This document shows, in pieces, positions 49,580 through 64,000 of a stretch of DNA of 64,000 nucleotides. Source of the DNA: Halodesulfovibrio sp. MK-HDV (GTDB taxonomy: Bacteria; Desulfobacterota; Desulfovibrionia; Desulfovibrionales; Desulfovibrionaceae); contig NZ_WYDS01000002.1 of the NCBI RefSeq assembly GCF_009914765.1, positions 176,852 through 240,851 of the forward strand, given 5' to 3'. The notes below the pieces were generated by a model that saw only the letters and a program-made list of their open reading frames with translations, did not search any database and had not been told where the DNA came from. Made by a program: the position numbers and the translations under genes. Position 1 is the first letter of the stretch. Each line of letters begins with the position of its first letter.

Positions 49580-51151
49580 CTATTTAACAACACTGATATG
49601 ACGTGGAAGGGTGTAACCGTCAGTACGTCCTTTGTAGTCGAGGTCTTTTGTCATACCCCAAACGTTCACTTGATAGTGAACAGGAACAATACCTACTTCG
49701 CCAAGACTAATTTCAACACCTTCAATGAGAAGTTCGTTATGTTTTTTAGGATCAACAGTAACGAGTGCTTCTTCGAGCAACTGGTCAACCTTAGGGTTGG
49801 AGTAACGACCGCGGTTAGCAGAACCGAAGCCTTTATCTTTGTCGTAAGTGTGAAGCAGTGCGCTGAGGCAGTTGGAATGTTCACCGGTGTCAGTGGCCCA
49901 ACCAAGAAGCATGAGGCTGAATTCAAGTTTGGAAGCTTTACCGAAGTATACACTCTTAGGCATTGTGATTACTTCAGTTCTAATACCAACCTTGGTCAGC
50001 ATCTGAGCAATTGCCTGTGCGATATCGCCATCGTTTACGTAACGGTCGTTAGGGCCGTGGATGGTGATTTTAAAACCGTCAGGGTAGCCAGCTTCTGCGA
50101 GCAGAGCTTTAGCGCCTTTAGGGTCATATGCTTCAGGCTTAAGTTTTTTACTTGTGCCTTCGTAACCTTCAGGAACCATCTGCGCGGCAGGAACAGCAAG
50201 GCCTTCCATGATGCGTGCAGCGATAGCTTTACGGTTAATTGCCTTAGAAATAGCTTTACGTACGCGTACGTCTTTCAAAGGGTTTTTGATTTTGTTACCG
50301 TCGTTGTCAGTCACCATCGGTGAGTAATCGCGGTCAGAATCAAGGTGCAAGTAGATAAGGCGAGTAGATGGAGATTTAGCAAGAGTAAGTCTTGCGTCTT
50401 TAGAAAGGTGAGCTACGTCTGCCGGTGGAACGAAGTTGATGAGATCAACGTCGCCGGATTTGAGCGCTGCTACACGTGTACCATCATTAGTAATAGGCTT
50501 AGCAATAATGGTTTCCCAAGGCTGTTTTTCGCCCCAGTAGTTATCGTTACGTTTGTAGATAATGGAGTCACCACGTTTCCATTCAACCAACATGTAAGGG
50601 CCGGTACCGATAGTTGCTTTACCTGAGTTAAAGTCAGCTGTGGTAGCGCCTTCACCGTATTTCTTAGAAACAACGTTGAAAGTGGCAAGGTTACGTGGAA
50701 GAAGAGGGGAAGGACCTTCTGTGTGGAATCGGATAGTAAGTGGGTCCACAATTTCAATTTCTTTAATGGCATTAACCATGGCTGTGAAAGAAGACGGGCT
50801 GTTAGGAACAGTAGGGATACGTTCGATAGTAAATTTAACGTCTTCTGCAGTAAACGGAGAACCGTCGTGGAAAGTAACGCCTTCACGGAGTTTAACTTCC
50901 CATACATTATCGCTTACTGGAGACCAGGAAACAGCGAGACCCGGCATCAGTTTCTGACGTTCATCCTGACGGATAAGTTTGTCGAAAACATAAATTGCCT
51001 GTTCGTTGTTTGCATTCACGTTATGGAAATGCGGGTCAAGAGAGGTTGGTTCACCTTTCAGACCGATAGTCAACGTCTGTGCAAATGCACCGGAGGCGCA
51101 TACGAGCAGCAGCATGCAGACGGTGACGATAGCCATAAATTTATTACGCAT
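49580..51151 (-). CDS. ABC transporter periplasmic peptide-binding protein (DppA/OppA, SBP family 5)
   Basis: 523 aa with a signal peptide (MAIVTVCMLLLVCASGAFAQ) and the family 5 pattern: LKGEPTSLDPHFHNVNANNE, VKLREGVTFHDGSPFTAEDV and GTGPYMLVEWKRGDSIIYKR. AGGAG lies six bases before the ATG at 51151. It captures peptides (or related solutes) in the periplasm for the transporter. The divergent M20 peptidase suggests the imported substrate is a dipeptide or N-acyl amino acid. Confidence 0.92.
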   Translation of the reverse strand: MRNKFMAIVTVCMLLLVCASGAFAQTLTIGLKGEPTSLDPHFHNVNANNEQAIYVFDKLIRQDERQKLMPGLAVSWSPVSDNVWEVKLREGVTFHDGSPFTAEDVKFTIERIPTVPNSPSSFTAMVNAIKEIEIVDPLTIRFHTEGPSPLLPRNLATFNVVSKKYGEGATTADFNSGKATIGTGPYMLVEWKRGDSIIYKRNDNYWGEKQPWETIIAKPITNDGTRVAALKSGDVDLINFVPPADVAHLSKDARLTLAKSPSTRLIYLHLDSDRDYSPMVTDNDGNKIKNPLKDVRVRKAISKAINRKAIAARIMEGLAVPAAQMVPEGYEGTSKKLKPEAYDPKGAKALLAEAGYPDGFKITIHGPNDRYVNDGDIAQAIAQMLTKVGIRTEVITMPKSVYFGKASKLEFSLMLLGWATDTGEHSNCLSALLHTYDKDKGFGSANRGRYSNPKVDQLLEEALVTVDPKKHNELLIEGVEISLGEVGIVPVHYQVNVWGMTKDLDYKGRTDGYTLPRHISVVK

Positions 51152-51349
51152 AAATATCTCCTTGCTTGTTAGTCTCACTCAAAACCGCGCGACTATACGA
51201 GAAATAAGCTTGAGAATCAAGAGAGTCTGAAGAAATCCGCATGAGTCGCCGCTTTTTTGCGGTGATTATATCTAAACCTGCCTAACAGTGCATACAATAA
51301 AAAGTAATTTCTGTCTTGCTGAAACTGACAAAAAAGTAAGGAATTAGAC

Positions 51350-52513
51350 GTGATTAAGAATGTACGAAAGTTCATCAATGAGCATGAACAAAACATGGTC
51401 TCACTGCTTAAAAAATTAGTTGAAATAAATAGCTACACTGGAAACAAAGAAGGCGTGAATGCAGTTGCCTCGGTCATCCAGGCAGAATGCGAAGCAATAG
51501 GGCTGCATGTTCGCCGTGAATCCAGCGAGCAGGCAGGAGACAATCTCGTAATTGAAACGCAGCTTCATAAGGAAGGAAAAAAAGGTATTCTCATGTGCGG
51601 TCACATGGATACCGTTTTCCCTCCAGAGCTCGGATTCAACACTTTTACGCACGATGAAACAAATTTCTATGGTCCTGGTGTGGCAGACATGAAATGCGGT
51701 CTTGTTGAAGGTATCTATGTTTTAAAAGCGCTCGATGCGCTTGGGCTGCTTCAAGACATGTCCATAGTCTTCATCTGCAACTCTGACGAAGAAACCGGCT
51801 CAATTAATTCTTCTGAACTCATTTTGAAAGAAGCCAGAAACAGCTTTGTAGGATTCGTGCTCGAATCTACCAGAGCAGGCGGTGAGCTTGTTATCGGTAG
51901 GAAAGGGCGCATGACTTTCGAGCTGGAAGTTACAGGTGAAGCTGCACATGCAGGAAACGTCGGAGCAGCTAAAGTCAGTGCAATCCTCGAGCTCGCGCGG
52001 CAGATTCAAGCACTTGAAGAACTCAATGATCTTCCTCAAGGACTAAGCGTCAACGTCGGAAAAATTGAAGGCGGAGTTGGTGCCAACACCGTATCCGAAA
52101 AAGCTCGTGCCATTGTCGAGTTTCGTTACACCAAGAAGGATAGCGGCGACAAAGTATGGGAAGCTGTTCAACAGCTTGCAGCAAAGCCGTTCACCAAAGG
52201 TACGTCCTGCACCGTCAGAACCATCACTGCGCGTCCTTCAATGGATACCAACGATGCAATCCTCGGCCTGTACGACATGATCAAAGAAATTGGCACCGAG
52301 CATGGGTACGACATTCAATGTGCCCAGTGCGGTGGCGGTTCCGATGCAAACTATATTTCTCAGACCGGAATTCCCGTTATCGACGGAATTGGCCCCATAG
52401 GTGGCAAGCTACATTCTGTGGATGAATACCTAGTGTCTAGCACTGTACCGGAGCGAGCAGTCCTTGCAACGCTCGTTATTGCCAAAGCTTGGGATTTATA
52501 CTGCTGCAAATAA
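51350..52513 (+). CDS. M20-family metallopeptidase (carboxypeptidase G2-like)
   Basis: 387 aa starting with GTG; AAGGA lies eight bases upstream. Zinc ligands are visible in MCGHMDTVFP, VADMKCG and NSDEETGS, and the lid domain is at about 180-290 (GRKGRMTFELEVTGEAAHAG). No signal peptide, so it is cytoplasmic. It probably hydrolyses C-terminal glutamate or other peptide/amide bonds of the imported substrate. It is divergent from the peptide-transport operon and ends with a strong terminator at 52721-52752. Confidence 0.87.
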   Translation: MIKNVRKFINEHEQNMVSLLKKLVEINSYTGNKEGVNAVASVIQAECEAIGLHVRRESSEQAGDNLVIETQLHKEGKKGILMCGHMDTVFPPELGFNTFTHDETNFYGPGVADMKCGLVEGIYVLKALDALGLLQDMSIVFICNSDEETGSINSSELILKEARNSFVGFVLESTRAGGELVIGRKGRMTFELEVTGEAAHAGNVGAAKVSAILELARQIQALEELNDLPQGLSVNVGKIEGGVGANTVSEKARAIVEFRYTKKDSGDKVWEAVQQLAAKPFTKGTSCTVRTITARPSMDTNDAILGLYDMIKEIGTEHGYDIQCAQCGGGSDANYISQTGIPVIDGIGPIGGKLHSVDEYLVSSTVPERAVLATLVIAKAWDLYCCK

Positions 52514-52530
52514 GTTGCGTTTAGGTGGTT

Positions 52531-52633
52531 GCCTTCGGCGAGTCTGCAACGCTGCCTTTGGTGAGTCTACGACGTTTTTAATTTTGTCTCCGACGGCTGG
52601 GGGAAACCTTGTTGAAACAAGGTTCTCCCCCAG
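52531..52633. repeat. GC-rich intergenic repeat unit
   Basis: Two 23-bp imperfect tandem copies (52531-52553 and 52554-52576; GCCTTCGGCGAGTCTGCAAC versus GCCTTTGGTGAGTCTACGAC) are followed by a long hairpin at 52597-52633, CTGGGGGAAACCTTGTT / AACAAGGTTCTCCCCCAG, with one bulged G. This resembles the GC-rich palindromic intergenic units seen in Desulfovibrio genomes. Confidence 0.65.
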
Positions 52634-52720
52634 ACCCCTTTCCAAAAACTTTTATTTGCGAGGTCAGCACGTTTTTTACGTAACTCTCGGCTTTATTCCA
52701 CTACCTTTCGTTAACTGAGA

Positions 52721-52752
52721 AAAGGCTGTCCTTCGTATGAAGGACAGCCTTT
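52721..52752. terminator. Terminator of the M20 peptidase gene
   Basis: AAAGGCTGTCCTTC and GAAGGACAGCCTTT pair over 14 bp with a GTAT loop. Confidence 0.85.
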
Positions 52753-52899
52753 GTTATTTATTCAGACGGTGAAACCAACTCTCGGAAATATTACCCTCTT
52801 GTTTGCCTCACCCGCTAACATACCTTTAATACGATAAAAGCGAGGTAGCTTCTTCGTGGCTTCTAACGAGATAAGTTACGAACTGAAATCACGTAAAAT

Positions 52900-52975
52900 C
52901 GGGGTCAAGGGGCGAGCCCCTTGCGGGCGCAGGGCAGAGCCCTTGCCCCTCGGAGAGTCGTCGAAGACCCACTGT
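52900..52975. repeat. Second GC-rich intergenic palindrome unit
   Basis: CAAGGGGC-GA-GCCCCTTG at 52906-52923 and AGGGC-AGA-GCCCT at 52931-52943 lie between GGGGTC and a GAAGACCC end. The composition is far more GC-rich than the surroundings. Related in style to the unit at 52531-52633. No gene is present in 52753-53129. Confidence 0.6.
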
Positions 52976-53002
52976 AAGAAACAGAAAAATGTCAGAAATA
53001 CA

Positions 53003-53033
53003 AAAAGGTGGAGTATCAAGTACTCCACCTTTT
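53003..53033. terminator. Terminator after the SnoaL-like gene
   Basis: AAAAGGTGGAGTA and TACTCCACCTTTT pair (13 bp, 5-base loop) about 95 bases beyond the stop of the leftward SnoaL-like gene. Confidence 0.75.
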
Positions 53034-53129
53034 CTTTTGGCCGTGTATTCCGGCTGAACGTTGCGACAGAACATGTAGGTAAGTGTAAAAACACTTACGC
53101 CAGAAACAGGATTACTCGTTGCGATTTGC

Positions 53130-53507
53130 TTACTTAGCGATTGGCTCGGAGTGGAAAGTTTTGGATACGATAATCCATTCACCGTTGTTCTTGATAAGAG
53201 AAAGGTAGTCGGTGAAGAGGCGGTCAACGATTACGAGGTTAACTTTAACCATAGCGTAGTTAGCGTTGATGAAATCGATAGCGAGGATGTTGTCTTCGCG
53301 TGCCACTCCCGCGTCTTTAGAAGACTGACGGCTTGCAATACGTCCTTTAAGAACGTCGCGGCCTGCGATTGTTACTTCGCCGTTATCGATAAATGAAATG
53401 TGAGCGCCGGGATGGAAAACTTTTTCCATGGTATCTGCGTCACCTTCGTAAAGCATTACAAAGTAAGTTTCTAAAAATTCAATAATTTCTTTAATTTCAG
53501 CTTGCAT
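53130..53507 (-). CDS. SnoaL/NTF2-like protein
   Basis: 125 aa with the cone-shaped NTF2 fold pattern: an N-terminal helix IIEFLETYFVMLYEGDADTM, EKVFHPGAHISFIDNGEVTI, and later VKVNLVIVDRLFTDYLSLIK. Family members (lumazine-binding/SnoaL-like) are often small-molecule-binding or isomerase domains. It is the last gene of the leftward amine-oxidation region and may process or bind its product. A hairpin leader at 53566-53605 precedes it. Function not assigned. Confidence 0.7.
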   Translation of the reverse strand: MQAEIKEIIEFLETYFVMLYEGDADTMEKVFHPGAHISFIDNGEVTIAGRDVLKGRIASRQSSKDAGVAREDNILAIDFINANYAMVKVNLVIVDRLFTDYLSLIKNNGEWIIVSKTFHSEPIAK

Positions 53508-54006
53508 GTCTTTTTCCTTGCAGAGGGAAACAGCGGGTATCGTTATGGGCGATATCTGCTGTTATCGAAAAACACAGACCCTAGATGCGCTAGCTGTGTT
53601 TTTCGGTAAAAGTATACTGTTTGTTCTGTCGCAAAATTCAGCCAGAATCGACCAAGGGAACACGGTTCCCTATTATGAAATCATATCTCTGCATAGATTG
53701 ATTCTATGGGAGTGGATGTTAGGATAGCTGAAAAATGTTGTCCACCGAAAAGACCATGTTGTAGAAAAGAAATGCTCAGGTAGAGAATGGTGTACGATGG
53801 TTTCAATAATGCAACACTGTTCACTAGTGCAGTTTTAAATCTATTCAAATTTGAATAATACAATGAAAAAAGCCTTACATAAAATATGTAAGGCTTAAAT
53901 AAGCTGTTATTACATTGTCTGGAGGTCATGAAACTTCGTGGGACAAAGAGTACCTACAAAAAGGCTGCTGATGGACAGCGGTAATGTAAAACAAACTTAG
54001 TAAAAA
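53508..54006. other. Leader of the SnoaL gene and terminator of the racemase gene
   Basis: A hairpin CGAAAAACACAG / CTGTGTTTTTCG (12 bp arms, 53566-53577 and 53594-53605) lies in the SnoaL leader, with an inner CTAG/CTAG pair. The terminator at 53871-53897 (AAGCCTTACATA / TATGTAAGGCTT) ends the racemase transcript. No other gene seen in this 500-base gap. Confidence 0.6.
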
Positions 54007-54723
54007 CTATTTGCGATAATCGGTACGGCGAACGCAGAATGCTGCGTATTCGATGAGTGCGTTAATATCGTATACAGGAAGGCCGATACGTTTATGTACA
54101 GCGTGTGAGAATGCAGGAAGATCTGTGCATTCGAGGATGAGTGCATCAAGATTGTGTTCTTTTACAAGAGTGTCGGCTGCGTCGCAGATTTCATCTTCCA
54201 TGCGATCCATATCGATATCGTCGTTTCTGCCTTCAATGATCGTATTCCAGAAGTAATCGTATCCTTCCATGCCTTTGATTACAAAGTCATTAATGTCGGA
54301 ATTAACACCTTTGAAATGTGCTTCGGTGAGCGCTTTGTTGCTTGCGGTAAGAATACCGATGTTGGCATCTTTACCGTGCATTGTGCGAACCATTGGAGCT
54401 TGCACGAGGCTTGAAACAAGCACTGGAATGTTTACTTCCGCTGCAATTTCTTGCTGGAAGCGAGCCATAAAGCCGCAGCTTCCGGTGATGGCTTTTACGC
54501 CTTCAGCCTCAAGTTCTTTTGCTGCATCAATAAACGGCTGCATGAGATCCGGTGTCGGATTAAAAAGCAGGCGAGGAATATCGATGTTTTTGAGAACCTT
54601 GTGCACTGTCGGAAAATTAAATGTGTAGTGGTTGCGCAGGTGACCTTTTGGCTTCGCGAAAGAAGATTCAAGGCAAATGATACCTACTGGTACGTCTTGA
54701 TATAAGTAGCCGCCTTTCAACAT
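54007..54723 (-). CDS. Asp/Glu/hydantoin racemase-family protein
   Basis: 238 aa. The two catalytic-type cysteines of the family are present: C83 in ITGSCGFMA and C199 in LILECTDLP. The fold has two alpha/beta halves (IGILTASNKALTEAHF near 122-138). Members invert the alpha carbon of amino acids or hydantoins, or decarboxylate malonates. Lying with an amino acid-type dehydrogenase, it could convert the L and D forms to feed that enzyme; that link is inference. It has a structured leader (54739-54838). Confidence 0.78.
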   Translation of the reverse strand: MLKGGYLYQDVPVGIICLESSFAKPKGHLRNHYTFNFPTVHKVLKNIDIPRLLFNPTPDLMQPFIDAAKELEAEGVKAITGSCGFMARFQQEIAAEVNIPVLVSSLVQAPMVRTMHGKDANIGILTASNKALTEAHFKGVNSDINDFVIKGMEGYDYFWNTIIEGRNDDIDMDRMEDEICDAADTLVKEHNLDALILECTDLPAFSHAVHKRIGLPVYDINALIEYAAFCVRRTDYRK

Positions 54724-54738
54724 AACATTTCTCCAAAC

Positions 54739-54838
54739 AAAAAAGTTAGACTCAGCCTAGAGTGGCAAAGGCTGAGGAGTGACCGGCACGGACTATTGCT
54801 AACGTATCCGTGCCGGAGCTTTGCGGAAGAATCACTCC
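54739..54838 (-). promoter_or_regulatory. Structured leader with terminator-like hairpin before the racemase gene
   Basis: On the minus strand: GGAGTGA ... TCACTCC (54838-54832 with 54782-54776) enclose a strong inner hairpin CCGGCACGGA / TCCGTGCCGG (54816-54807 with 54792-54783). Directly after it comes CTCAGCC-N12-GGCTGAG (54776-54751) followed by a T-run at 54744-54739, then the ribosome site GGAG. The terminator stem shares a base with the outer stem, so they may compete. This looks like an attenuator or riboswitch-like leader, though a plain terminator is also possible. Confidence 0.5.
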
Positions 54839-55027
54839 ATGCGTCCTTGGCTAAATAACTGTCAGTTGTCGTTGTGCCGATAGACAGTGAATACATTGCA
54901 GCCGGTTGTGGCAATGTGTTGTCTATGAGGAGGCAAGCATCCACTGGGATAGTGGTGGAATACCGGAACAACTTCAAATGACGAAAGAAACGTAAAGATT
55001 AATACAAAACTGCACTGAGCTGACTGT

Positions 55028-55104
55028 TTCAAAAAAATCGTAGCGTATGGATGTTGCGATTTGACTTTTTGTCACGTTTTGCACTGCACAGGCTTGTCTC
55101 AATC
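55028..55104. repeat. Dispersed intergenic repeat, copy 2
   Basis: Matches 25424-25512: a TTCAAAAAA arm, a GACTTTTT arm, and TTGCACTGCACAGG plus TTGTCTCAATC with one mismatch over the last 26 bases. It lies between the dehydrogenase and the racemase genes; no gene is otherwise visible in 54839-55145. Confidence 0.65.
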
Positions 55105-55145
55105 AATAAAGCAATGCTTTGTAAGTAACCTTACGTTGTTTCTAA

Positions 55146-56528
55146 TTACTTTGCTTCGGGAAAATCACGTAATTCACGAACTGTAATCGGTCTAATTGGT
55201 GGACGGATGTTCAAGGCTCCAACATTAGGAACTTCACTGCCCAGTGCTTCTGCTGCAATTTCAGCAAGCGCTGCGCCGCACATTCGTCCCTGACAAGGGC
55301 CCATTCCACAACGAGTACGTAATTTGATTTCGTTCACGTCGTGGCAGCCTTCTTTGACAGCCTGACGAATATCGCCTGCCGTTACGCCTTCGCATCGGCA
55401 GACAAGTACGTTGTCAGCAACGTCAAAAAGACCTTTTTTAGGTGCAAAGAATGCATCTACAAAGCCACGAGGTGCGAGGGCTTTGAAGAGACGCTTCTTA
55501 GCTGGTTTAATTTGAAGCAGTGCGGCACTTTCGCTGAGTCTTTTGATATGACGGGCAACATCGATACCGGCAAGCTCGCCTTTGGCAGCGGCAGCATAAA
55601 CACCATGGACTTTCTGTCCGTCACCTACAACGTAGATGGAGTCTCTGCTGGAGCGGCCGAATTTGTCCGTTTTTGCATACCAGTAACGCTGTGTTTTATC
55701 CCATTCATGTTCGAGCTGAAGCATACGGGAAACGTGCGTACGTGGAAGCATGCCTTCGTGGACAAGCAAGGTTGCTGCTTCGAGTGTTTTGGTTTTACCA
55801 CCGTGGTTGAAGGTAACTCGTTTAAGTTGTTCATCACCTTCTGCCTTGATGTCACTGGCACCCATGTATTGCTTTACGCCGCTGCGGAACATGTTCACAA
55901 CCATTTTGAGTCCCTTCAAAAGGAAGGGAACATCAACCAAGGCTTGTGGCATGTGCAGCATGGATGTGGCTTTGTTCTGAATGGGGCTTGTATCCAGAAC
56001 ACCTGCGATTTCAACACCCAATTCCGTAAGGTGGTTTGTAACCAGCGGAATAAGAGGGCCGTTGCCCGCAATGACAACAGGGCCGTGCGGTACCATGCCT
56101 GCACTTTTGTATAAAAGGTCGGCAGAACCCGCACTCATTACACCCGGTGTAGTCCAGCCGGGGAATGGTACAGGGCGTTCCATTGCGCCAGTGGCTACAA
56201 TGATACACTGGGCTTTAATTTCACGTGCCGTGCCTTCGGTGCTGCAAAGTACGCGTCCAGGTTCTGCGTCCCATACTGTTGTCTTTGGCAGATAGAGTGC
56301 GCCGCTTTTGTTGAAGCGGCCTACAAGCTCGAGGCCGTCATTACGGTCTTCTTTAGACAGAAAGTTTTTGCTTGAGTTTTTGCCGGATACTGAACGGTAA
56401 ATCTGACCGCCAGGTAACTCCTGCTCATCCAGAAGAACTACATCCAGACCATTTTCAGCGGCTGCGCTTGCGGCAGAAAGACCCGCAGGGCCTGCGCCGA
56501 TAACGAGTAAGTCGTACTGCTGCTGCAT
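55146..56528 (-). CDS. FAD/[2Fe-2S] dehydrogenase subunit (HcnB / D-hydroxyproline dehydrogenase alpha type)
   Basis: 460 aa. N-terminal Rossmann fold (VIGAGPAGLSAASAAAENGL), a second nucleotide-binding motif (VVIAGNGPLIPLVTNHL), and a C-terminal BFD-like [2Fe-2S] domain with C377 and C379 (VCRCEG) and C407 and C412 (RTRCGMGPCQGRMC). This is the pattern of the HcnB/opine or D-hydroxyproline dehydrogenase alpha subunit. Its ATG overlaps the stop of the small [2Fe-2S] gene, so the complex is co-translated. The substrate (glycine, a D-amino acid, imino acid or opine) is not readable from sequence. Confidence 0.85.
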   Translation of the reverse strand: MQQQYDLLVIGAGPAGLSAASAAAENGLDVVLLDEQELPGGQIYRSVSGKNSSKNFLSKEDRNDGLELVGRFNKSGALYLPKTTVWDAEPGRVLCSTEGTAREIKAQCIIVATGAMERPVPFPGWTTPGVMSAGSADLLYKSAGMVPHGPVVIAGNGPLIPLVTNHLTELGVEIAGVLDTSPIQNKATSMLHMPQALVDVPFLLKGLKMVVNMFRSGVKQYMGASDIKAEGDEQLKRVTFNHGGKTKTLEAATLLVHEGMLPRTHVSRMLQLEHEWDKTQRYWYAKTDKFGRSSRDSIYVVGDGQKVHGVYAAAAKGELAGIDVARHIKRLSESAALLQIKPAKKRLFKALAPRGFVDAFFAPKKGLFDVADNVLVCRCEGVTAGDIRQAVKEGCHDVNEIKLRTRCGMGPCQGRMCGAALAEIAAEALGSEVPNVGALNIRPPIRPITVRELRDFPEAK

Positions 56529-56821
56529 TAGTATTTCTCCCTGAGGGTATTCTGGCGTTTAACCTTCATTCCTTCACGTACAGTAACGAGACAGGACTGC
56601 TGGTTAGGGACGCCGTCGATTTCCATCATGCACTCAAAGCAAACGCCCATGAGACATACAGGAGCACGGTTGTCACCTTTTACAGGGTTTTTGCCGGTGT
56701 GTCCGGCATGGCCGGGGCCGAGAACGGCAGCAGCTACAGAAATATCTGCAGGAACGGTAAGTGCTTCATCTTCAAAATAGATGGTTACGGTGTCCTGCGT
56801 GTTCGTTTTGTTTGTAGACAT
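56528..56821 (-). CDS. (2Fe-2S)-binding dehydrogenase subunit (HcnA / gamma type)
   Basis: 97 aa, with one [2Fe-2S] cluster: C56, C61 and C64 in PVCLMGVCFECMMEIDGVP and C77 in NQQSCLVTV. This is the small subunit of HcnABC-type dehydrogenases and passes electrons between the two flavin subunits. It lies 31 bases after the FAD subunit gene and overlaps the next. Confidence 0.85.
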   Translation of the reverse strand: MSTNKTNTQDTVTIYFEDEALTVPADISVAAAVLGPGHAGHTGKNPVKGDNRAPVCLMGVCFECMMEIDGVPNQQSCLVTVREGMKVKRQNTLREKY

Positions 56822-56852
56822 GAAAAAAGCTCCAAATAATGACTACGGCGAG

Positions 56853-57968
56853 CTACTTCTCGTCGAAACGTGAAAGCGTAAAGCTAGCTGCGGTTTTGCA
56901 AATATCGTTGCCCATAATGTAATCAGGCAATTCAGCGACATGGATAGCAGCAAGGGTAACAGCACTGTGGGCATTAAGAATAAAGCCGTTTTCGTGTCCC
57001 GGGATTTTGTCGTAAATCGGGAAACCGTCTTTCGGCCAAACTCGCAGGCAGCTCCATGTACGGATGATGCGAAGATCTGCAAGTGCAGGCCAGATGTCTG
57101 TTGCCCATTTTGCAACGTGGCAGAACTTTTCGGAATGGAGCGAAGTGTCTGTTCCCACGTATTCATGCTCAAACCCGATCATGATTGTGCCACCGCGAGT
57201 GCGGGTGATGCCGAGAAGCGGGGATGGCAGAATGTCCGGTACACGTTCTGTAAGGAAAACTTGTCCTTTATTCGGAACGACAGGAACGTTGACGCCGAAT
57301 TTACCGGCGAGCTGACGGTTGCCAAGACCACCTGCAAGTACCAGACGGGTGCATTCAATCTCACCTTTGTCTGTTGTCACAAGGTAGCCAGAGTCTGTTT
57401 TGACAACATCAATCACGTTGGTGTCCGGAATAAGCGTGCCGCCAAGGTTGGTAATGCCATGACGTAATGCGAACATCAGTTTCAACGGCTCCACAAGGCC
57501 GTCTTCTGCACACCATGTTCCGCCGGTAACGTTCGGGCCGAATGTGACGTTCGGGAGCTTTGCTTCAAGCTCTTCACGAGTCATCATTGTGCCGGGATAC
57601 CCTTCTTCGCCTGCTTCTTTACGGAGCGCGTCGAGATAGTCACTGCGTTTTGTAAATTCTTCTTCACCAAGGCAGGGGATGATGCCGCCGGACTCAGTGT
57701 ATTCGATGTCGATGCCGGAAGTTTCTTTAAGATCTTTGGCAAGGTCGCCAAAAAGCTTGGAAGAGTTGAAGCACCATTCAACATAGTCTCTATTTCCCAG
57801 CGCCTTTGACTGACACCAGACGAGTCCCATGTTGCTTCGGGAGGCTCTGTCTACAGGAGGTGTTGCGTCTACTACGCCAACGCTGACCCCTTTTTTAGCA
57901 AGCCCGTAGCCCACAGCCGCGCCGGTGACGCCGCCGCCCACAATGAGCACATCAAAATTTTGTCGCAT
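56853..57968 (-). CDS. FAD-dependent amino acid dehydrogenase subunit (HcnC / DadA type)
   Basis: 371 aa of the D-amino acid dehydrogenase/HcnC family: LIVGGGVTGAAVGYGLAKKG for the FAD, a VLAGGLGNRQLAGKFGVNVP segment, and the C-terminal GFILNAHSAVTLAAIHVAEL. It is the catalytic subunit that abstracts hydride from the substrate amine, producing an imine. The neighbouring RidA would hydrolyse such an imine or enamine. GAGG lies before the ATG. A 170-base gap with hairpins separates it from ridA. Confidence 0.85.
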   Translation of the reverse strand: MRQNFDVLIVGGGVTGAAVGYGLAKKGVSVGVVDATPPVDRASRSNMGLVWCQSKALGNRDYVEWCFNSSKLFGDLAKDLKETSGIDIEYTESGGIIPCLGEEEFTKRSDYLDALRKEAGEEGYPGTMMTREELEAKLPNVTFGPNVTGGTWCAEDGLVEPLKLMFALRHGITNLGGTLIPDTNVIDVVKTDSGYLVTTDKGEIECTRLVLAGGLGNRQLAGKFGVNVPVVPNKGQVFLTERVPDILPSPLLGITRTRGGTIMIGFEHEYVGTDTSLHSEKFCHVAKWATDIWPALADLRIIRTWSCLRVWPKDGFPIYDKIPGHENGFILNAHSAVTLAAIHVAELPDYIMGNDICKTAASFTLSRFDEK

Positions 57969-58004
57969 TATGCGATCCTCTTTTTACCTGCAGTAACGTC
58001 GTAT

Positions 58005-58062
58005 CTGCTAAAAAATATTTTTAAGCAGCATCCAGATTTCCGGTGCAGTCTCCGTAATCTGG
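58005..58062 (-). promoter_or_regulatory. Hairpins in the leader of the dehydrogenase genes
   Basis: CTGCTTAAAAA / TTTTTTAGCAG (58028-58005) and CCAGATT ... AATCTGG (58062-58032) lie between ridA and the dehydrogenase gene. A further hairpin near 58100-58130 (CCGGC ... GCCGG) follows ridA. These could terminate, process or regulate the downstream message. Confidence 0.4.
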
Positions 58063-58138
58063 AGATAATGAGTAAATGGAAAAAAAGTAGCTGACAGAGT
58101 TACTCCGGCAAGGTTTATGCCGCCGGAAGTACGCCATG

Positions 58139-58513
58139 TTACGGCTTTCTGTAAGCTATTGCGTCAACTTCGATCTTACAGTCGCACATCATAGTTCCCT
58201 GAATGGTTACTCGTGCCGGTGCGTGCTCTATGTCGAAGAATTCAGCGAAAACTTTATTGAATTCAGCAAAGTCGCGTGGGTCATCAATCCATACGCCTAC
58301 GCGTACAACGTCTTTCATTTCGTAGCCGGAGTTGGTGATGACGGTGACAAGGTTCGTTAACGTAAGACGAGCCTGATCAATCATGCTGCCAGCGTTTAAT
58401 TCACCTTTTGCATCGCGAGGAACCTGACCGGTAACGTAAAGCCAACCATTTGCTTCCACCGCGTTAGAAACAGGAAGTCTTGGGTGTGTTCCGTGTCGTG
58501 TAATTGCAGACAT
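58139..58513 (-). CDS. RidA-family imine/enamine deaminase
   Basis: 124 aa, normal RidA length. Motifs: NGWLYVTGQVPRDAKGELNA, LVTVITNSGYEMKDVVRVGV, and the active-site HAPARVTIQG with its conserved arginine. It hydrolyses reactive imines or enamines from amino acid oxidation to 2-oxo acids and ammonium. Position between a symporter and an FAD amine dehydrogenase strongly suggests it handles that enzyme's product. It is separate from the symporter pair by a GC-rich terminator (58771-58793). Confidence 0.88.
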   Translation of the reverse strand: MSAITRHGTHPRLPVSNAVEANGWLYVTGQVPRDAKGELNAGSMIDQARLTLTNLVTVITNSGYEMKDVVRVGVWIDDPRDFAEFNKVFAEFFDIEHAPARVTIQGTMMCDCKIEVDAIAYRKP

Positions 58514-58770
58514 TGTATGAATCCTTTTTGATCTGGGTACTCATGGCTTATTGAACCTGAAAGTACCGATGGATAATGGTAACCTGCGCTCTGGCGCTAT
58601 GAAGGATTTTCCTAGAACGCAGGCACCACATGTACGCTTACGATTAAATCGAAGCAAAAAATTGCAATCTTTTTTATGTAGAATCAGCAGATTGACCCTG
58701 TTGTTTTGTTGAATCTGATTGTTGTGCAATTTGACTGTGTCATTCAACAGGGCACATAATTAAAAATAAT

Positions 58771-58793
58771 GGCCGCCTGCAGCGCAGGCGGCC
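58771..58793 (-). terminator. Terminator after the symporter accessory gene
   Basis: GGCCGCCTGC / GCAGGCGGCC (10 bp, 3-base loop) followed on the minus strand by ATTATTTTTAATTA. It may reduce transcription into ridA. Confidence 0.8.
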
Positions 58794-58800
58794 GCTTGGT

Positions 58801-58917
58801 CTAATCTTTTTTGTTTAAGCTTTTTACCCAGCCTACAACGTTAATGGCTACCCATGTAGCGCAAATAATGTTGGCGGCAAAGGAGGCATAGATAACGTAC
58901 TTAACGATAACTTCCAT
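58801..58917 (-). CDS. Small membrane accessory protein of the sodium:solute symporter
   Basis: 38 aa, reading MEVIVKYVIYASFAANIICA then TWVAINVVGWVKSLNKKD, a single transmembrane helix with a basic tail. GGAGGA of its ribosome site overlaps the symporter stop codon, giving a 9-base gap. Short peptides of this kind (symporter small accessory proteins) accompany SSS transporters in several anaerobes. It is probably needed for assembly or stability of the transporter. Too short to be listed by most gene callers. Confidence 0.72.
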   Translation of the reverse strand: MEVIVKYVIYASFAANIICATWVAINVVGWVKSLNKKD

Positions 58918-58925
58918 ATATCCTC

Positions 58926-60374
58926 CTACAGGAGTTTTTCAGGTACGAATGCACCTTTGGGCTCAATGTTTTTAGTTGCCATATGTACAACGAACAGAAC
59001 AAGACAGTTGGCAAGGATGCCGACTAAGTTAGCCGGAATGCCATATGGTTCGTGCAGTACTTTATCACCCCAGATAAGGCAGGCTGTGAGACCGAAAAGG
59101 ATAGCAGGTGCACCAGCGTATGGGGATATTTTGATGGTACCGAGTTTACCGGAAAGGGCGATAAGCAGTGGAGGAAGAACAGCTGATGGCCAGAGTTTGA
59201 ATACGTACACCATGAGACCGAATACATCCTGGAAAAGGACAGCAACGGCGATAGAACCACCACCGATGATCAAAGTAGCCCAACGGGACTGCTTAAGCAG
59301 GGCGGCTTGTGTTGCCGTTTTATTAATGAATTCGTTGTAGATATCGCGGGTGTAGATAACCGCAGCGGTGTTAATGAATGAATCGCCTGTAGACATAACA
59401 GCAGCGAGCAATGCACCGAATACGATACCAGCGAGACCCATAGGTAACGTGTCACGTACGAGGTTGGTCAATGCAAGACCCGGCTCTACGTTTGGCTGTA
59501 GAACGAGTGAGGCAAGACCGATACCTGCGGTAGTGGCAAGGAAGAAGCCGTAGTAACCTGCAAAGATGAGAACACCTTTTTTGGAATCCTTGGCGGATTT
59601 AGCCGTTGCGTATCGCTGAATAAAGTACGGAGCACAGAATTCACCAAGCAGGAACGCTAGGAAAAATCCTAAGAGTTGTAATGGAGACCAGTCAGCAAAA
59701 GGCTGGAGTTTGGCAGCCATTTCAGGTGTTGAGTGAAGTACTTCCATTATGTGGTCGAAGCCACCGGCATTGTTCATAGCAAGGATACCACACAAGGAGA
59801 TACCAAGTGCGAGAACAACGTACTGAACAGCATCAGTAAGTACTACCGCCAGCATACCGCCGGACCATGTGTAGGCAACTGTAATAACGGAAGAAAGAAT
59901 TGCGGCTGGAATAATATCCATGCCTGTGGCGGTCTGAAGAATTCGACCCATAGCAAGAATCTGAACCCCGAACAGCGCGAGACAGAACAAAAATGCTACA
60001 ATACTTGAGAAAAGGCGTCCCATTCGACCATAATACAGGCCAAATATGTCACCAATACTGTAAATGTTTTTACCGGCTTCACGCACTTTGCCTGCGATGA
60101 AAAAGCCGGACCAGAACTGGTTGATTACTACCCCGAGAAGACCTGCAAAAACTACAATGCCTGCCTTATGCATAAATGCAATACGACCAATTGTTGCCCC
60201 ACCACCACACAGTGTTGCAGCAATTGTAGCAAATAGAATCGCAGTTGGCACACTACGACCAGCAACAGCGTAATCGTCGAAATTTTCGACCTTACTCATT
60301 GTGTAGATGCCCATCCAAATGACAAGCCCGAAGTAAAGAAATACTACGAGCATGTCTAACCAGTGAAGTCCCAT
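58926..60374 (-). CDS. Sodium:solute symporter (SSS family)
   Basis: 482 aa, about 13 helices. The N-terminal FDDYAVAGRSVPTAILFATI and the sodium-site-like GALLAAVMSTGDSFINTAAV are typical of SSS transporters (PutP/PanF group). It imports a solute with sodium, plausibly the amino acid or amine oxidised by the downstream dehydrogenase. GAGGAG precedes the ATG. A sigma-54 promoter lies about 105 bases upstream (60479-60493), and activator sites further up. Confidence 0.9.
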   Translation of the reverse strand: MGLHWLDMLVVFLYFGLVIWMGIYTMSKVENFDDYAVAGRSVPTAILFATIAATLCGGGATIGRIAFMHKAGIVVFAGLLGVVINQFWSGFFIAGKVREAGKNIYSIGDIFGLYYGRMGRLFSSIVAFLFCLALFGVQILAMGRILQTATGMDIIPAAILSSVITVAYTWSGGMLAVVLTDAVQYVVLALGISLCGILAMNNAGGFDHIMEVLHSTPEMAAKLQPFADWSPLQLLGFFLAFLLGEFCAPYFIQRYATAKSAKDSKKGVLIFAGYYGFFLATTAGIGLASLVLQPNVEPGLALTNLVRDTLPMGLAGIVFGALLAAVMSTGDSFINTAAVIYTRDIYNEFINKTATQAALLKQSRWATLIIGGGSIAVAVLFQDVFGLMVYVFKLWPSAVLPPLLIALSGKLGTIKISPYAGAPAILFGLTACLIWGDKVLHEPYGIPANLVGILANCLVLFVVHMATKNIEPKGAFVPEKLL

Positions 60375-60478
60375 GCATACTCCTCATTGTTTGATCGCTA
60401 ATCGACATAAAGTCGTCAACAAATGACAGAATAGCGAGATTATTTTCGTACACTATTCAAAGACTGCATTTGCTATGA

Positions 60479-60493
60479 GCAAGGAGTATACCA
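60479..60493 (-). promoter_or_regulatory. Sigma-54 (-24/-12) promoter of the symporter operon
   Basis: On the minus strand: TGGTATA-CTCC-TTGCT matches TGGCACG-N4-TTGCA with exact GG-N10-GC spacing. It is about 105 bases upstream of the symporter start, next to the gene for a sigma-54 activator. Confidence 0.72.
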
Positions 60494-60561
60494 CTTGATT
60501 TTGTTAGTGTAACTGTATGATATTCTTAAAATAGTGCAGAAATTGTAATAGCTGCTCAATG

Positions 60562-60578
60562 TGTAACATTCTATTACA
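60562..60578. promoter_or_regulatory. Activator-site dyad, copy 1
   Basis: TGTAAC-ATTCT-ATTACA: inverted repeat with N5 spacer. It lies about 70 bases upstream of the -24 element of the symporter promoter. Confidence 0.6.
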
Positions 60579-60600
60579 GTTGAGTGAATGTTCAATAAAA

Positions 60601-60624
60601 AAACAGGGCTGGAGTGCCCTGTTT
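60601..60624 (-). terminator. Terminator of the sigma-54 activator gene
   Basis: AAACAGGGC / GCCCTGTTT with a TGGAGT loop, and a T-run on the minus strand. Placed between the regulator stop and the symporter promoter. Confidence 0.78.
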
Positions 60625-60664
60625 TCGGTAAATAACAAAATTGTTTTTGTGTAATGACTCAGTG

Positions 60665-60698
60665 TGTAACGAATCTTTACATGTAATGAATCGTTACA
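60665..60698. promoter_or_regulatory. Tandem activator-site dyads, copies 2 and 3
   Basis: TGTAAC-GAATC-TTTACA (60665-60681) and TGTAAT-GAATC-GTTACA (60682-60698) lie directly side by side at the end of the regulator gene. Same consensus as 60562-60578 and 62793-62809. Confidence 0.62.
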
Positions 60699-62759
60699 TC
60701 AGTTTTGTGAAAGGTCATATTTTTTAAGCTTTCTATACAATGTCGGTCTGCTTACACCGAGAGAACGTGCTACTTTGCTGATGTTGCTATCATTTTCATT
60801 CATCAAGCGCGCGATAAGTGCCTGTTCCATCTCTCCCAACATTGCTTCACTATTTGTATCCAAATTAGCGACTTCTGCCGGAACATTTGCGTGGTTTGAA
60901 TGGTCGCTGTCAGATGCAATATTCTGCGCTGTTCGTGTATCTGTGTAATCAAGTCCAAGATCATCCGGCATGATCACACGTTGCTCACAAATGTTTACTG
61001 CACGTTCTACAGAGTTTTCAAGTTGGCGAATATTGCCGGGCCATGTGGCCTGTGAAAACGCCTGCAGGGCAGAGCTGCTGTATTCCAAATCCGGCTTTCC
61101 GAGGCGAGGGCGGATGCGGTGAAGAAATGTTTCGGCAAGTGTCAACACGTCATTTCCACGATCACGCAGCGGTGGAATTGTAATGTTCAATGTGCTGATA
61201 CGGTAGAATAAATCTTCACGGAAGGTTCCGCGTTTAATTGCTGTGTCGAGATCTACGTTGGTTGCAGCAATAATGCGCAGGTCAACTTTTATGGTTTGCA
61301 TATCTCCGACACGGTTTACTTCACCGGACTGCAAGGCTCGTAAAATTTTTACCTGCATATCAAGAGGCATGTCTCCGATTTCATCTAGGAACAGTGTGCC
61401 GCCATCTGCCAATTCAAATTTACCCGGACGTCCGCCTTTGCGTGCTCCGGTAAATGCGCCTTCCACATACCCGAATAATTCACTTTCAAGTAATTCGTTC
61501 GGAATAGCTCCGCAGTTGATGACAACAAATGGTTTGTTGTGCCGTGGGCTGGCATTATGAATCGCTTGCGCAAATAATTCTTTACCCGTGCCTGTTTCTC
61601 CATGAAGGAGCACGGCTGCATCGCCTCGTGCGGCTGCGTTTGCGACCTTTTTAGCTTCCTTAAGTGATGAACTGGAACCGATGATAGAATTGAACGTAAA
61701 ACGAGCCTGAGAACCCGCCATTTCGTTTGCCAATTGCAATATCCTGTCGTGTTCTACGACCAAGAGCATACCGCCTGCACTTTCGCCGTCAGGCATTGTG
61801 ATAGGGTCGAGGGTACAGACAAGCTGAAAGCGCGAATCGCCACGAATGAATGTTACTTCCCTTTCTGTGAACCCTTGCTTGGCGCGCAGAGTCTGCTTCC
61901 AGTTCATGCGTGTGCGTGTGAGCGCAGAAATATTAAGGGACTCTTGAGAATCCGGACTGTGAAGAGAAGCGCTGCTAGCATTACTTTGATCAAGTCCAAG
62001 AAGCGCTGTAGCTTTTTTATTGATCTGAACAATGTCTCCATCACCGTTGAGAGTAATGATCCCTCGCTGATCGGATTCCATAAGCGCAGTCATATATGTG
62101 TTACGGATAGCTATTTCGCGTGCTTTTTCAATTTCACCAATCTGAGATCGAATTGCCTTTGCGGTGAGAATAACCATACCGAGCGTGTGAATATGTACAG
62201 CACTGGCTAAACCGCTCAAAGCAATTACGCCGAGGAGCTTGCCGTTGTTGTCATGTACTGGTGTGGCTGAGTTGGTAATATGATGTGCGCGTTTGCAGAA
62301 CATCTCTTTACCGGAAATTTGAATAGGGATGCCTTCAATGAGAACGAGTCCGATGCCGCAAGTACCTACAGCTTCTTCTGTCCAAAGATAACCGGGCATA
62401 CAGTTACCCTTCTTGTAATGCGAGAGCAGGTGGGCATCTCCCAGCGTATGGAGAACATATCCGTCTGCATCAGCAACAGCCATACAGAAACCTGAACCCT
62501 GTAGAATTCGGTACAAGGTGGACATTTGTGTGGTCACAAGGTCGTAGAACGGCTGGCTGTCTTTTATCCGCTGCCGCAGCATTTCTGGAGATATTTTATA
62601 TTTTTCAGGAGCAGAAGTCTGGTTAGGGTCGATCCCTGCGGCTCTGGAACGAGCATGGGATTCTTCGATGATTTGCACATGGCTGCGCGCTTTGAATTGC
62701 GTACTTACAAATAACTCACTGCCCTGAGCAGTTGTGTGTCGTGAACTAATGTTCTGCAT
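60699..62759 (-). CDS. AcoR-like sigma-54-dependent activator with GAF and PAS domains
   Basis: 686 aa. An N-terminal GAF-type sensor (about 90-220; YLWTEEAVGTCGIGLVLIEG), a PAS domain (about 230-330; MESDQRGIITLNGDGDIVQI), the AAA+ domain with HGETGTGKELFAQAIHN (Walker A), the sigma-54-contacting GAFTGA loop, and LFLDEIGDMPLDMQVKILRA, and a Fis-type helix-turn-helix (ISKVARSLGVSRPTLYRKLK). This is the AcoR architecture, sensing a small metabolite. The ATG at 62759 has GGGGGAAG upstream. It most likely activates the symporter and dehydrogenase genes. Confidence 0.9.
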   Translation of the reverse strand: MQNISSRHTTAQGSELFVSTQFKARSHVQIIEESHARSRAAGIDPNQTSAPEKYKISPEMLRQRIKDSQPFYDLVTTQMSTLYRILQGSGFCMAVADADGYVLHTLGDAHLLSHYKKGNCMPGYLWTEEAVGTCGIGLVLIEGIPIQISGKEMFCKRAHHITNSATPVHDNNGKLLGVIALSGLASAVHIHTLGMVILTAKAIRSQIGEIEKAREIAIRNTYMTALMESDQRGIITLNGDGDIVQINKKATALLGLDQSNASSASLHSPDSQESLNISALTRTRMNWKQTLRAKQGFTEREVTFIRGDSRFQLVCTLDPITMPDGESAGGMLLVVEHDRILQLANEMAGSQARFTFNSIIGSSSSLKEAKKVANAAARGDAAVLLHGETGTGKELFAQAIHNASPRHNKPFVVINCGAIPNELLESELFGYVEGAFTGARKGGRPGKFELADGGTLFLDEIGDMPLDMQVKILRALQSGEVNRVGDMQTIKVDLRIIAATNVDLDTAIKRGTFREDLFYRISTLNITIPPLRDRGNDVLTLAETFLHRIRPRLGKPDLEYSSSALQAFSQATWPGNIRQLENSVERAVNICEQRVIMPDDLGLDYTDTRTAQNIASDSDHSNHANVPAEVANLDTNSEAMLGEMEQALIARLMNENDSNISKVARSLGVSRPTLYRKLKKYDLSQN

Positions 62760-62792
62760 TACTTCTTCCCCCAACAGAATGAGCAAAATAGG

Positions 62793-62809
62793 TGTAACAT
62801 TTTGTTACG
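62793..62809. promoter_or_regulatory. Activator-site dyad, copy 4
   Basis: TGTAAC-ATTTT-GTTACG, 34 bases upstream of the regulator ATG. It suggests the activator also controls its own gene. Confidence 0.58.
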
Positions 62810-62883
62810 GTATACCCTGTGTATTGCGTAGAAAAAGTGTAAATGCAAGCGGGAATAAGTTGAGCAATATCAGGTAAATAAAA

Positions 62884-62909
62884 AGCCCCGACACCTAAGT
62901 GCCGGGGCT
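62884..62909 (-). terminator. Terminator of the glycyl radical enzyme gene
   Basis: AGCCCCGACAC / GTGCCGGGGCT with a 4-base loop (one G-U), and T-rich sequence following on the minus strand. Confidence 0.8.
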
Positions 62910-62933
62910 CATTATATCATCTATTGCGTTGTA

Positions 62934-64000
62934 CTAAACAGATTCGTGTGCAGTACGTGCGATGAGGTCGTTCTGGAGATCTGGGGACAGATCTACGAAG
63001 TATGCAGAGTAACCTGCGATACGAACGATAAGGCTACGGTATTTTTCTGGATCTTTCTGAGCAGCAACCAAGGTATCTTTGTTGATAACGTTGAACTGTA
63101 CGTGCCAGAGTTTAAGGTCGCAGAAAGTACGGATGAAGGATACGAGTTTATCGGTACCTTCTTCGCCTTCAACACACTTCGGAGTGAACTTGATGTTCAA
63201 CATACGAGCAGCGCGATCGCGGTGGCCGTAGTTTTTAGAAGTGTAGTTAGAAAGAAGAACTGCGGTAGGACCGTTGTGGTCAGCACCGTGAGATGCTGAT
63301 GAACCGTCAGAGAGAGCAGTCCAAGCAAGACGACCGTTAGGAGATGCACCAACTACTTTACCGAAAGGTACGTGGGAGGTGAACGGTACGTAACGTACGT
63401 CGTTGTGCATGCCGAGTTCTTTAGCGTATTTCTGACCGTAGAGAACGTTGAGGCTATCAACTTTGTTCGCTACTTCATCAGCGTACACGTCGTCGTTGCC
63501 GTAGCAAGGAGCGGTCATGAGGAGCTGACGAACGTCTTCTTTACCTTCGAAGTTGCAATCACAAGCTTCGATAACTTCTTTCATAGTAAGTTTTTTGTCT
63601 TCGAAAACGAGTTTCTTGATAGCGCAGAGTGAGTCTACGAGAGTACCAAGGCCCATGTGCTCGAAGTAACCCATGTTGATTCCTTCAGGAATCTGTGGGG
63701 TATGGAGATCAACACAATGCTTCATGCAGAGATCGTGCATTGCGGAACCCATTGGCTGAGCAAAGTGCTTAGCACGAAGGTTGTTGATCACGTACTGCTG
63801 GTAGAATGCAGTCTTGAGGAAGTGGTGATGCTGTTTTTCATAAGCATTCCAGAATTCGTCCCAAGAGTTCATTTCGAGTGGGTTGCCGGTTTCGAGGCCG
63901 AGAACTTCATCGCCATGTTTGAGCATTTTGCCGTTGTGCAGAACCATTTCGAGAGCTGCTACGAAGTTGATGTATGCACCACCGGATGTGTATGTGTCGC
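62934..64000 (-). CDS. Glycyl radical enzyme, C-terminal part (window cuts the 5' end)
   Basis: About 355 codons, open to the right edge. The glycyl radical motif is near the C terminus: [20 protein letters not shown], with the glycine at 63012-63014. Earlier blocks include [18 protein letters not shown] and [15 protein letters not shown]. The active-site C-x-E region lies outside. In a sulfate reducer isethionate sulfite-lyase is the first candidate; hydroxyproline dehydratase fits less well since the GGARYN-like stretch of that enzyme is not seen here ([19 protein letters not shown] instead). Choline lyase has a different RVSGYAV-type end. The assignment remains open. Codon use is biased, suggesting high expression. 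Confidence 0.85.

Follow-up and report, generated by a model that had tools for sequence, protein, structure and literature searches.

A racemase, three-subunit dehydrogenase and RidA gene module with a sigma-54 promoter-like region in Halodesulfovibrio: a candidate unit of amino acid catabolism

Introduction

Anoxic sediments and guts are sites of D-amino acid accumulation; which anaerobes oxidize these compounds is, to our knowledge, poorly known. One described route through a D-form is that of D-hydroxyproline dehydrogenase, in which an epimerase of the proline racemase type precedes a three-subunit dehydrogenase and which further includes a DapA-type deaminase and an aldehyde dehydrogenase. 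Another is the dad locus of Pseudomonas (DadX-DadA-DadY-DadR), for which PMC9714295 describes a pyridoxal phosphate-dependent racemase (DadX) missing in some lineages, a single-subunit flavin adenine dinucleotide (FAD) dehydrogenase of the D-form releasing an imine (DadA), a Rid2 protein hydrolyzing this imine (DadY) and a dedicated AsnC-type regulator (DadR). OoxAB and OdhABC are flavin opine dehydrogenases (PMC4575208). In the octopine (occ) operon of a Ti plasmid, the genes for a transporter, OoxB, a 2Fe-2S protein, OoxA and RidA follow each other. Finally, loci of Roseobacter, Paracoccus and Oceanisphaera (L165-L168, L175-L177) place a racemase of the PRK07475 subfamily next to an annotated FAD oxidoreductase, with a transporter of the TRAP-TAXI, TctBAC or SSS type; no published function for them was found in the literature searched. 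Here, we describe a locus in a 64,000-nucleotide stretch of the sulfate-reducing marine bacterium Halodesulfovibrio sp. MK-HDV (G000:C2:176852-240851 of a 4.17 Mb assembly, hereafter the window), which encodes a sodium:solute symporter (SSS) with a 38-amino acid partner, RidA, an HcnABC-type dehydrogenase, an Asp/Glu-type racemase and a sigma-54-dependent activator (Table 1). The nearest named contigs for its HcnC belong to Halodesulfovibrio sp. N3 (94%) and H. spirochaetisodalis (90%).

On balance, we favor the reading that this module is a dedicated catabolic unit for one amino acid, combining uptake, L-to-D racemization, oxidation to an imine and hydrolysis by RidA. It would work like DadX-DadA-DadY with other proteins and without being a member of that system, as it likewise joins a racemase, an FAD dehydrogenase, an imine-clearing Rid protein and a dedicated regulator, but relies on an Asp/Glu-type racemase, a three-subunit dehydrogenase, a sigma-54 activator and a built-in transporter. 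With the occ operon it shares the block of transporter, dehydrogenase and RidA genes, in the order transporter, beta, gamma, alpha, RidA in the Ti plasmid read; no racemase is seen there and OccR control and an ABC transporter take the place of its own counterparts. The PRK07475 loci carry a racemase of the same subfamily, but a single-subunit oxidoreductase and a LysR-type regulator. From the D-hydroxyproline route, in which an epimerase likewise precedes the dehydrogenase, it is set apart by the three enzymes mentioned above, none of which is seen here, and by its beta subunit, which falls outside the branch that holds one locus of that type.

The enzymes are all of known kinds, the transporter-dehydrogenase-RidA block being known from the opine operon and the racemase-dehydrogenase-Rid logic from dad. 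The designation of the locus as uncharacterized in a preliminary description has to be narrowed by the block that also occurs in the occ operon; as a whole, that interpretation is partly supported. What appears to be new is how these parts are combined, the occurrence of the combination with different transporters, the very small partner of the symporter and the operator-like region with its sigma-54 promoter element; no literature on this module was found, in searches that never combined all of its parts.

Conservation of the Module

Twenty-two clusters, each with a close HcnC, were read. One (L178) belongs to another family of the phylum and 21 to the family of the window, namely the four Halodesulfovibrio clusters (window, L026, L027, L077) as well as L028, L029, L078, L080, L081, L120-L124, L126 and L128-L133, with HcnC cut by the contig end in L126; L078 and L126 are near-identical and therefore not independent. 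HcnC of the 18 others aligned is 43-95% identical to that of the window. The conserved core consists of RidA, the HcnC-A-B-type dehydrogenase, a two-cysteine racemase of the Asp/Glu family, a transporter and the sigma-54 activator. RidA occurs in all 22 clusters (partial in L081) and the racemase, with at least 49% identity, in 20; the transporter is exchanged, with an SSS symporter in 10 clusters, a tripartite TctB/TctA-type system (TctBAC) in 11 and none found in L130. Conservation of gene order in relatives, a check suggested in the preliminary description, does not hold literally, since the order is scrambled between genera and the transporter exchanged, whereas the gene content is kept throughout the 22 clusters. 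Its designation of the inversion step as optional agrees with the absence of the racemase from two of the four Halodesulfovibrio clusters, L027 and L077. Searches for racemase remnants in these two gave just short, chance-level matches, and the intergenic stretches flanking the missing gene are kept, largely in L077 and as short pieces in L027.

Co-occurrence was followed by searching 247 genomes of the family three times, apparently the same set on each occasion. An HcnC orthologue is present in 19 of the 247, including 17 with at least 585 bits, one split in two (G140) and one fragment of 167 residues (G251). A close racemase accompanies it in 16 of these 19 genomes (exceptions G008, G009, G165) and occurs elsewhere only in G176, whose HcnC is interrupted by a contig end; the racemase of G230, at 230.7 bits, lies just below the cut-off of 231. 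Likewise, a close activator (at least 560 bits) was found in 18 genomes, all with the module: 17 of the 19 with HcnC (exceptions G165, G251) and G176. The linkage of beta subunit, racemase and activator exceeds chance in these counts, which ignore kinship. More distant racemases without a close HcnC occur in G191, G199, G209 and G284, and the only racemase of G165 is likewise distant. Within the window's genus the module is patchy, with 4 of the 10 genomes carrying it.

Catalytic Proteins

The racemase passes the curated cut-off of PRK07475/NF005679 (238.1 bits, cut-off 231). C83 (GSCGF) and C199 (ECTDL), the catalytic cysteines of the superfamily, are invariant in 20 of 20 aligned sequences, and the structural model (predicted local distance difference test score, pLDDT, 89) shows the Asp/Glu/hydantoin racemase superfamily fold. 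Related racemases were present in 166 plasmid records, of which 10 annotated loci were examined: an annotated FAD-dependent oxidoreductase adjoins the racemase in eight, several of them close kin (two Ruegeria, two Leisingera), and the two loci without it have more distant racemases. The closest plasmid racemase, from Oceanisphaera, shows 51% identity and stands in the order SSS, FAD oxidoreductase, racemase. The two of these plasmid oxidoreductases that were tested matched D-amino acid dehydrogenase PRK00711 best; their scores, 184 and 200 bits, lie below the cut-off of 383. Because related racemases adjoin single-subunit, DadA-like FAD oxidoreductases in other Proteobacteria, the dehydrogenase type seems to be exchanged while the racemase stays, so the racemases nearest to that of the window appear to be paired with a dehydrogenase of the D-amino acid type, irrespective of the protein that fills this role. 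One of these loci, on a plasmid of Ruegeria sp. SCSIO 43209 (L166), reads TAXI-TRAP, D-amino acid dehydrogenase-like protein, PRK07475 racemase, TSUP, CuyA-like protein (337 bits, cut-off 450) and RidA, and is a candidate for a sulfonated amino acid route in its own right.

The tandem genes for the beta (DAO), gamma (Fer2_4) and alpha (Pyr_redox_2 plus BFD 2Fe-2S) subunits correspond to the layout of alpha-beta-gamma dehydrogenases with FAD, flavin mononucleotide (FMN) and 2Fe-2S (OdhABC, D-hydroxyproline dehydrogenase, HcnABC). An Arg-x-Trp motif in the beta subunit is described as a putative FMN site in PMC4575208. All 19 aligned HcnC sequences keep this motif (R303-x-W305) as well as R309, and R309 aligns with the arginine in the 'GLRPGTKDG' stretch of glycine oxidase structures. 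This glycine oxidase residue we take to be the carboxylate-binding Arg302. The HcnC model is fair (pLDDT 77.6), with glycine oxidase, sarcosine oxidase beta and L-proline dehydrogenase as best folds. K55, which lies near glycine oxidase positions, was considered as a side-chain reader; it is common to opine-type and TRAP-type relatives and thus to the wider three-subunit family, and is therefore uninformative on the substrate. With OoxB and a Ti-plasmid relative, the beta subunit shares 32-37% identity.

Further arrangements of these proteins were encountered. A second, distant copy in the window's genome (L083; G000:C4, 6664-15251) comprises a TRAP transporter, HcnC-A-B and RidA with its own sigma-54 activator. 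Its TRAP proteins are 56-72% identical to those of the Oceanisphaera plasmid locus L165, where the TRAP-containing block adjoins the SSS, FAD oxidoreductase and racemase unit and dddP, suggesting gene exchange. In L115 and L117 (G191, G199), divergent HcnB-type proteins (29-34%), in L115 together with HcnC and HcnA (26-31%), occur with a PRK07475 racemase (33%) beside an acylating, SauS/EutE-like aldehyde dehydrogenase, with scores below cut-offs, perhaps representing another substrate class with the same logic.

In RidA, R101 is invariant in 14 of 14 aligned sequences and is, from its PAR context, presumably the catalytic arginine. It is known that Rid genes occur next to those of FAD amine oxidases (PMC4433059).

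Transporter and Small Partner

The 38-amino acid open reading frame (ORF) looks real from its sequence features, because it has six homologues besides that of the window by BLAST (seven members in total), substitutions that fall preferentially on third codon positions (38/20/65 by position; 6 pairs, four species), an AGGAGG ribosome-binding site and one hydrophobic segment. It matched no Pfam or NCBIfam model. In all 10 SSS-type clusters, the symporter gene is directly followed by a hydrophobic ORF of 34-39 amino acids; BLAST matches seven of these ORFs, including that of the window. L132 has a 39-amino acid ORF with the same core at the same place, and L028 and L029 have 34-amino acid hydrophobic ORFs there without clear similarity. 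The tiny hydrophobic ORF after every SSS copy read is a candidate for a new small transporter subunit.

The transporters gave little guidance on the substrate. The solved relatives of SSS are choline and sugar/sialic-acid-type symporters with weak scores and hence uninformative, and the best solved relatives of one TctC from a relative include 2dvz and BugD (2f5x), but also terephthalate binders, which leaves just a hint. We take 2dvz to be BugE, and BugE and BugD to bind Glu and Asp.

Promoter and Operator-Like Region

The activator carries a GAFTGA loop, as read in the sequence, and the unit is predicted to be a sigma-54-controlled operon from its -24/-12 promoter and upstream sites near the gene of this bacterial enhancer-binding protein (bEBP). 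The element TGGTATACTCCTTGC, whose score was reached by 0 of 300 shuffles, is present in all four Halodesulfovibrio clusters. A -24/-12-like element lies at most 200 bases before the first gene of the unit in all 14 clusters with an adjacent activator, be this gene SSS (4), the racemase (5), TctB (1) or RidA (4); the scores range from 11 to 13.5 of 14.5, and each exceeds the scores of at least 97% of 300 shuffled sequences. The clusters without an adjacent activator, L124, L028 and L029, score 0, 9 and 10. The scan is weak alone, as a score of 11 was reached in 11 of 55 internal-gene control windows versus 14 of 14 clusters and a score of 12 in 3 of 55 versus 12 of 14.

Moreover, the same 14 clusters all feature three upstream 17-bp palindromes, TGTAAY-N5-RTTACA (10-12 of 12 positions), with near-fixed spacing: the proximal one starts 83-101 bases above the -24 element, and the distal pair lies another 89-103 bases up. 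The two sites of this pair are separated by 17-18 bases in 13 clusters and by 31 in the remaining one, L122. L124, L028 and L029 have no site with at least 9 of 12 positions. From position and co-occurrence, the palindromes are likely the operator of the activator, and a one-mismatch copy before the activator gene possibly points to autoregulation. Further activator promoters (L243-L248) had not been used in the motif definition; leaving out L245, where the contig ends, four of five agree, with the same layout in L243, L246 and L248 (the latter in the other family, cluster L178) and a shifted distal pair in L247; the L246 sites had already come up in the survey of exact sites given next. Over 99 related genomes, 40 exact sites were counted, 13 of them at module activators, versus 33 for a reversed-pattern control; all cases of at least two exact sites within 200 bases (G000, G002, G008, G009, G021) lie at module activators. 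The window's genome contains three exact palindromes, two at the locus and one inside a coding region which by eye resembles a prophage structural gene.

Some promoters fit this regulatory picture less well. The distal pair of L247 is located 68 instead of about 90 bases up, and the gene behind that promoter was not identified. A second activator (47%) in the module genome G281, L244, which adjoins TctA/TctC without dehydrogenase genes, lacks operator-like sites. The TRAP-type paralogues have a -24/-12-like element, with no palindromes in L082 and one of 10 of 12 positions far up in L083.

Proposed Pathway and Alternative Explanations

Read from gene content, linkage, family catalytic residues and the promoter and operator-like architecture, the module could operate as follows. 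The symporter with its 38-amino acid partner, or TctBAC in relatives, would import an L- or D-amino acid, and the two-cysteine racemase would turn the L- into the D-form. The latter would be oxidized at C-alpha by the three-subunit dehydrogenase to a 2-imino acid, with electrons passing via FAD, FMN and 2Fe-2S towards the respiratory chain, and RidA would then break the imine down by hydrolysis, yielding ammonium and a 2-oxo acid. With substrate present, the sigma-54 activator, acting on the three palindromes, would switch the unit on. The succession of import, optional inversion, oxidation, imine hydrolysis and dedicated control that had been outlined in the preliminary description remains the best reading, with a conserved gene for each step and a likely operator for the activator. 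As no downstream enzyme was seen common to the clusters, a 2-oxo acid of central metabolism is the probable product, which would favor Ala, Asp or Glu as substrate. That sulfate reducers of sediments and animal guts hereby oxidize an amino acid through its D-form by an undescribed, respiratory-chain-linked route of racemase, dehydrogenase and RidA is a more tentative proposal, which we hold to be possible rather than probable.

Several observations weigh against a unit of this kind. Two species lack the racemase, the fold of which is about equally near to Asp, Glu and hydantoin racemases and arylmalonate decarboxylase; no one functional class stands out in the PDB fold search. The CuyB cysteate racemase model (NF052483) gave 33.2 bits, under its cut-off of 190. 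Among 15 further loci of the phylum (L179-L193; racemases of 33-47% identity), six have a DAO-type match, mostly of 21-27% identity and not always adjacent, and nine none; of the family racemase loci without a close HcnC, L116, L118, L119, L127 and L134 showed no such match. RidA is also part of the occ operon and therefore no proof of a primary-amine substrate. Besides, OoxB and proteins of opine plasmids fall into one 30-row group with the beta subunit at 100/100 support, apart from the single D-hydroxyproline-type reference and the other references, in a tree with partly open internal order and a program warning of long branches, which holds no OdhB of proven function and in which the D-hydroxyproline-type reference is named from gene neighbors only.

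This grouping and the matching block of the occ operon are the reason to keep opine or secondary-amine catabolism as the main rival, where an opine (e.g., octopine, strombine, or alanopine of invertebrates) would be cleaved to a 2-oxo acid and an amino acid and the racemase would handle the released or a diastereomeric amino acid. Nopaline and octopine are the substrates of the OdhABC characterized in PMC4575208. Nevertheless, related racemases elsewhere adjoin single-subunit FAD oxidoreductases, and the racemase belongs to 20 of the 22 clusters, which makes this explanation rather unlikely. We know of no role for a racemase in known opine routes. The same frequency of the racemase, and its position as first gene of the operon in five clusters, speak against the view that D-amino acids as such (Ala, Asp, Glu from debris of cell walls) are respired and that the racemase was added secondarily; this is improbable, even though two syntenic species keep the other core genes and the flanking intergenic stretches without a racemase. 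Least of all do we expect catabolism of a sulfonated amino acid (cysteate) with sulfite passing to respiration, for which CuyB and CuyA provide the background (PMC11382572, PMC6278857). It would tie the module to the HpsG-type (2S)-3-sulfopropanediol dehydratase gene next door in all four Halodesulfovibrio and has a parallel in L166, where racemase, TSUP, CuyA-like protein and RidA are joined, but HpsG is unmatched in the other 18 clusters within the stretches read, the CuyB score is low, a second Ruegeria locus that begins alike has no CuyA-like gene and no sulfonate gene was seen common to the clusters.

If the more tentative proposal of an undescribed route through the D-form is true, these bacteria would be users of D-amino acid debris, by a route built from parts unrelated to DadX, a dehydrogenase unlike DadA, freely exchanged transporters and one conserved sigma-54 operator. 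The module offers a concrete gene set for the question of D-amino acid oxidation in anaerobes. It also clearly illustrates that pathways evolve in a modular way, since a single subfamily of racemases stands with changing types of transporter and dehydrogenase. The distinct operator-like region allows a cheap reporter assay, in which the inducer should reveal the substrate.

Features of the Locus and Neighboring Genes

All genes named in the preliminary description are present as open frames on the minus strand, and their family names are supported by Pfam and NCBIfam (Table 1).

Table 1. Genes and sequence elements of the locus, in window coordinates.
Feature	Position	Strand	Support or remark
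SnoaL-like, Lumazine_bd_2	53130-53507	-	Pfam/NCBIfam
Racemase, Asp_Glu_race, PRK07475/NF005679, cofactor-independent	54007..54723	-	Pfam/NCBIfam
Dehydrogenase alpha subunit, HcnB type, FAD + BFD-like 2Fe-2S	55146..56528	-	Pyr_redox_2 87 bits, SO_alpha_A3, Fer2_BFD
Dehydrogenase gamma subunit, HcnA type, 2Fe-2S	56528..56821	-	Fer2_4 81 bits
Dehydrogenase beta subunit, HcnC/OdhB type, DAO family, catalytic	56853..57968	-	DAO 180 bits
RidA imine deaminase	58139..58513	-	Ribonuc_L-PSP 89 bits
Terminator-like hairpin between 38-amino acid gene and ridA	58771..58793	-	seen in four species
38-amino acid single-span candidate symporter partner	58801..58917	-	follows SSS
Sodium:solute symporter (SSS)	58926..60374	-	SSF 144 bits
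-24/-12 sigma-54 promoter-like element TGGTATACTCCTTGC	60479..60493	-	119 bases upstream of symporter start
Operator-like palindrome, proximal	60562..60578	strand-neutral	
Operator-like palindrome, distal 2, one mismatch	60665..60681	strand-neutral	
Operator-like palindrome, distal 1	60682..60698	strand-neutral	
Sigma-54-dependent activator (bEBP)	60699..62786	-	ATG start 62759, earlier TTG 62786; Sigma54_activat 237 bits, PAS, HTH_8
One-mismatch operator-like palindrome before activator gene	62793..62809	strand-neutral	

The SnoaL-like gene, which the preliminary description lists with the locus, drops out of the pathway, as it was found in the four Halodesulfovibrio clusters and not in the 18 others within the stretches read, and lies behind a terminator-like hairpin. 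The hairpin between the 38-amino acid gene and ridA is conserved, and behind it a strongly structured leader precedes ridA (58520-58660, minus strand; z -4.9, 0 of 200 shuffles), partly conserved in relatives, which may bear on ridA-hcnCAB expression. Rfam gave two weak matches near ridA, none of them confident, and no family at gathering score over 50000-64000. Behind hcnB (54760-54880, minus strand), a hairpin element with GGAGTGATTCTTCCGCAA in all four species followed by a long stem (z -2.75) is retained where the racemase is missing; its exact 19-mer ending in AAA has a single copy in each of three genomes among 99 related ones. No Rfam match was obtained there up to E 1.

On the opposite strand (49580-52513), genes that by eye encode a peptide-type solute-binding protein and an M20-type peptidase lie beside the locus in all four Halodesulfovibrio, without a match in other module clusters within the stretches read. 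On the other side, the HpsG-type glycyl-radical enzyme (L084; 62934-63998 and beyond) adjoins the activator gene in the same four; its last 354 residues, which lie in the window, reach 660 bits to Desulfovibrio-type HpsG, for which the cut-off of 1000 is set for the full protein. No literature joining Halodesulfovibrio and glycyl radical enzymes was found. By eye, TRAP-like, activase-like and TSUP-like genes follow the HpsG-type gene.

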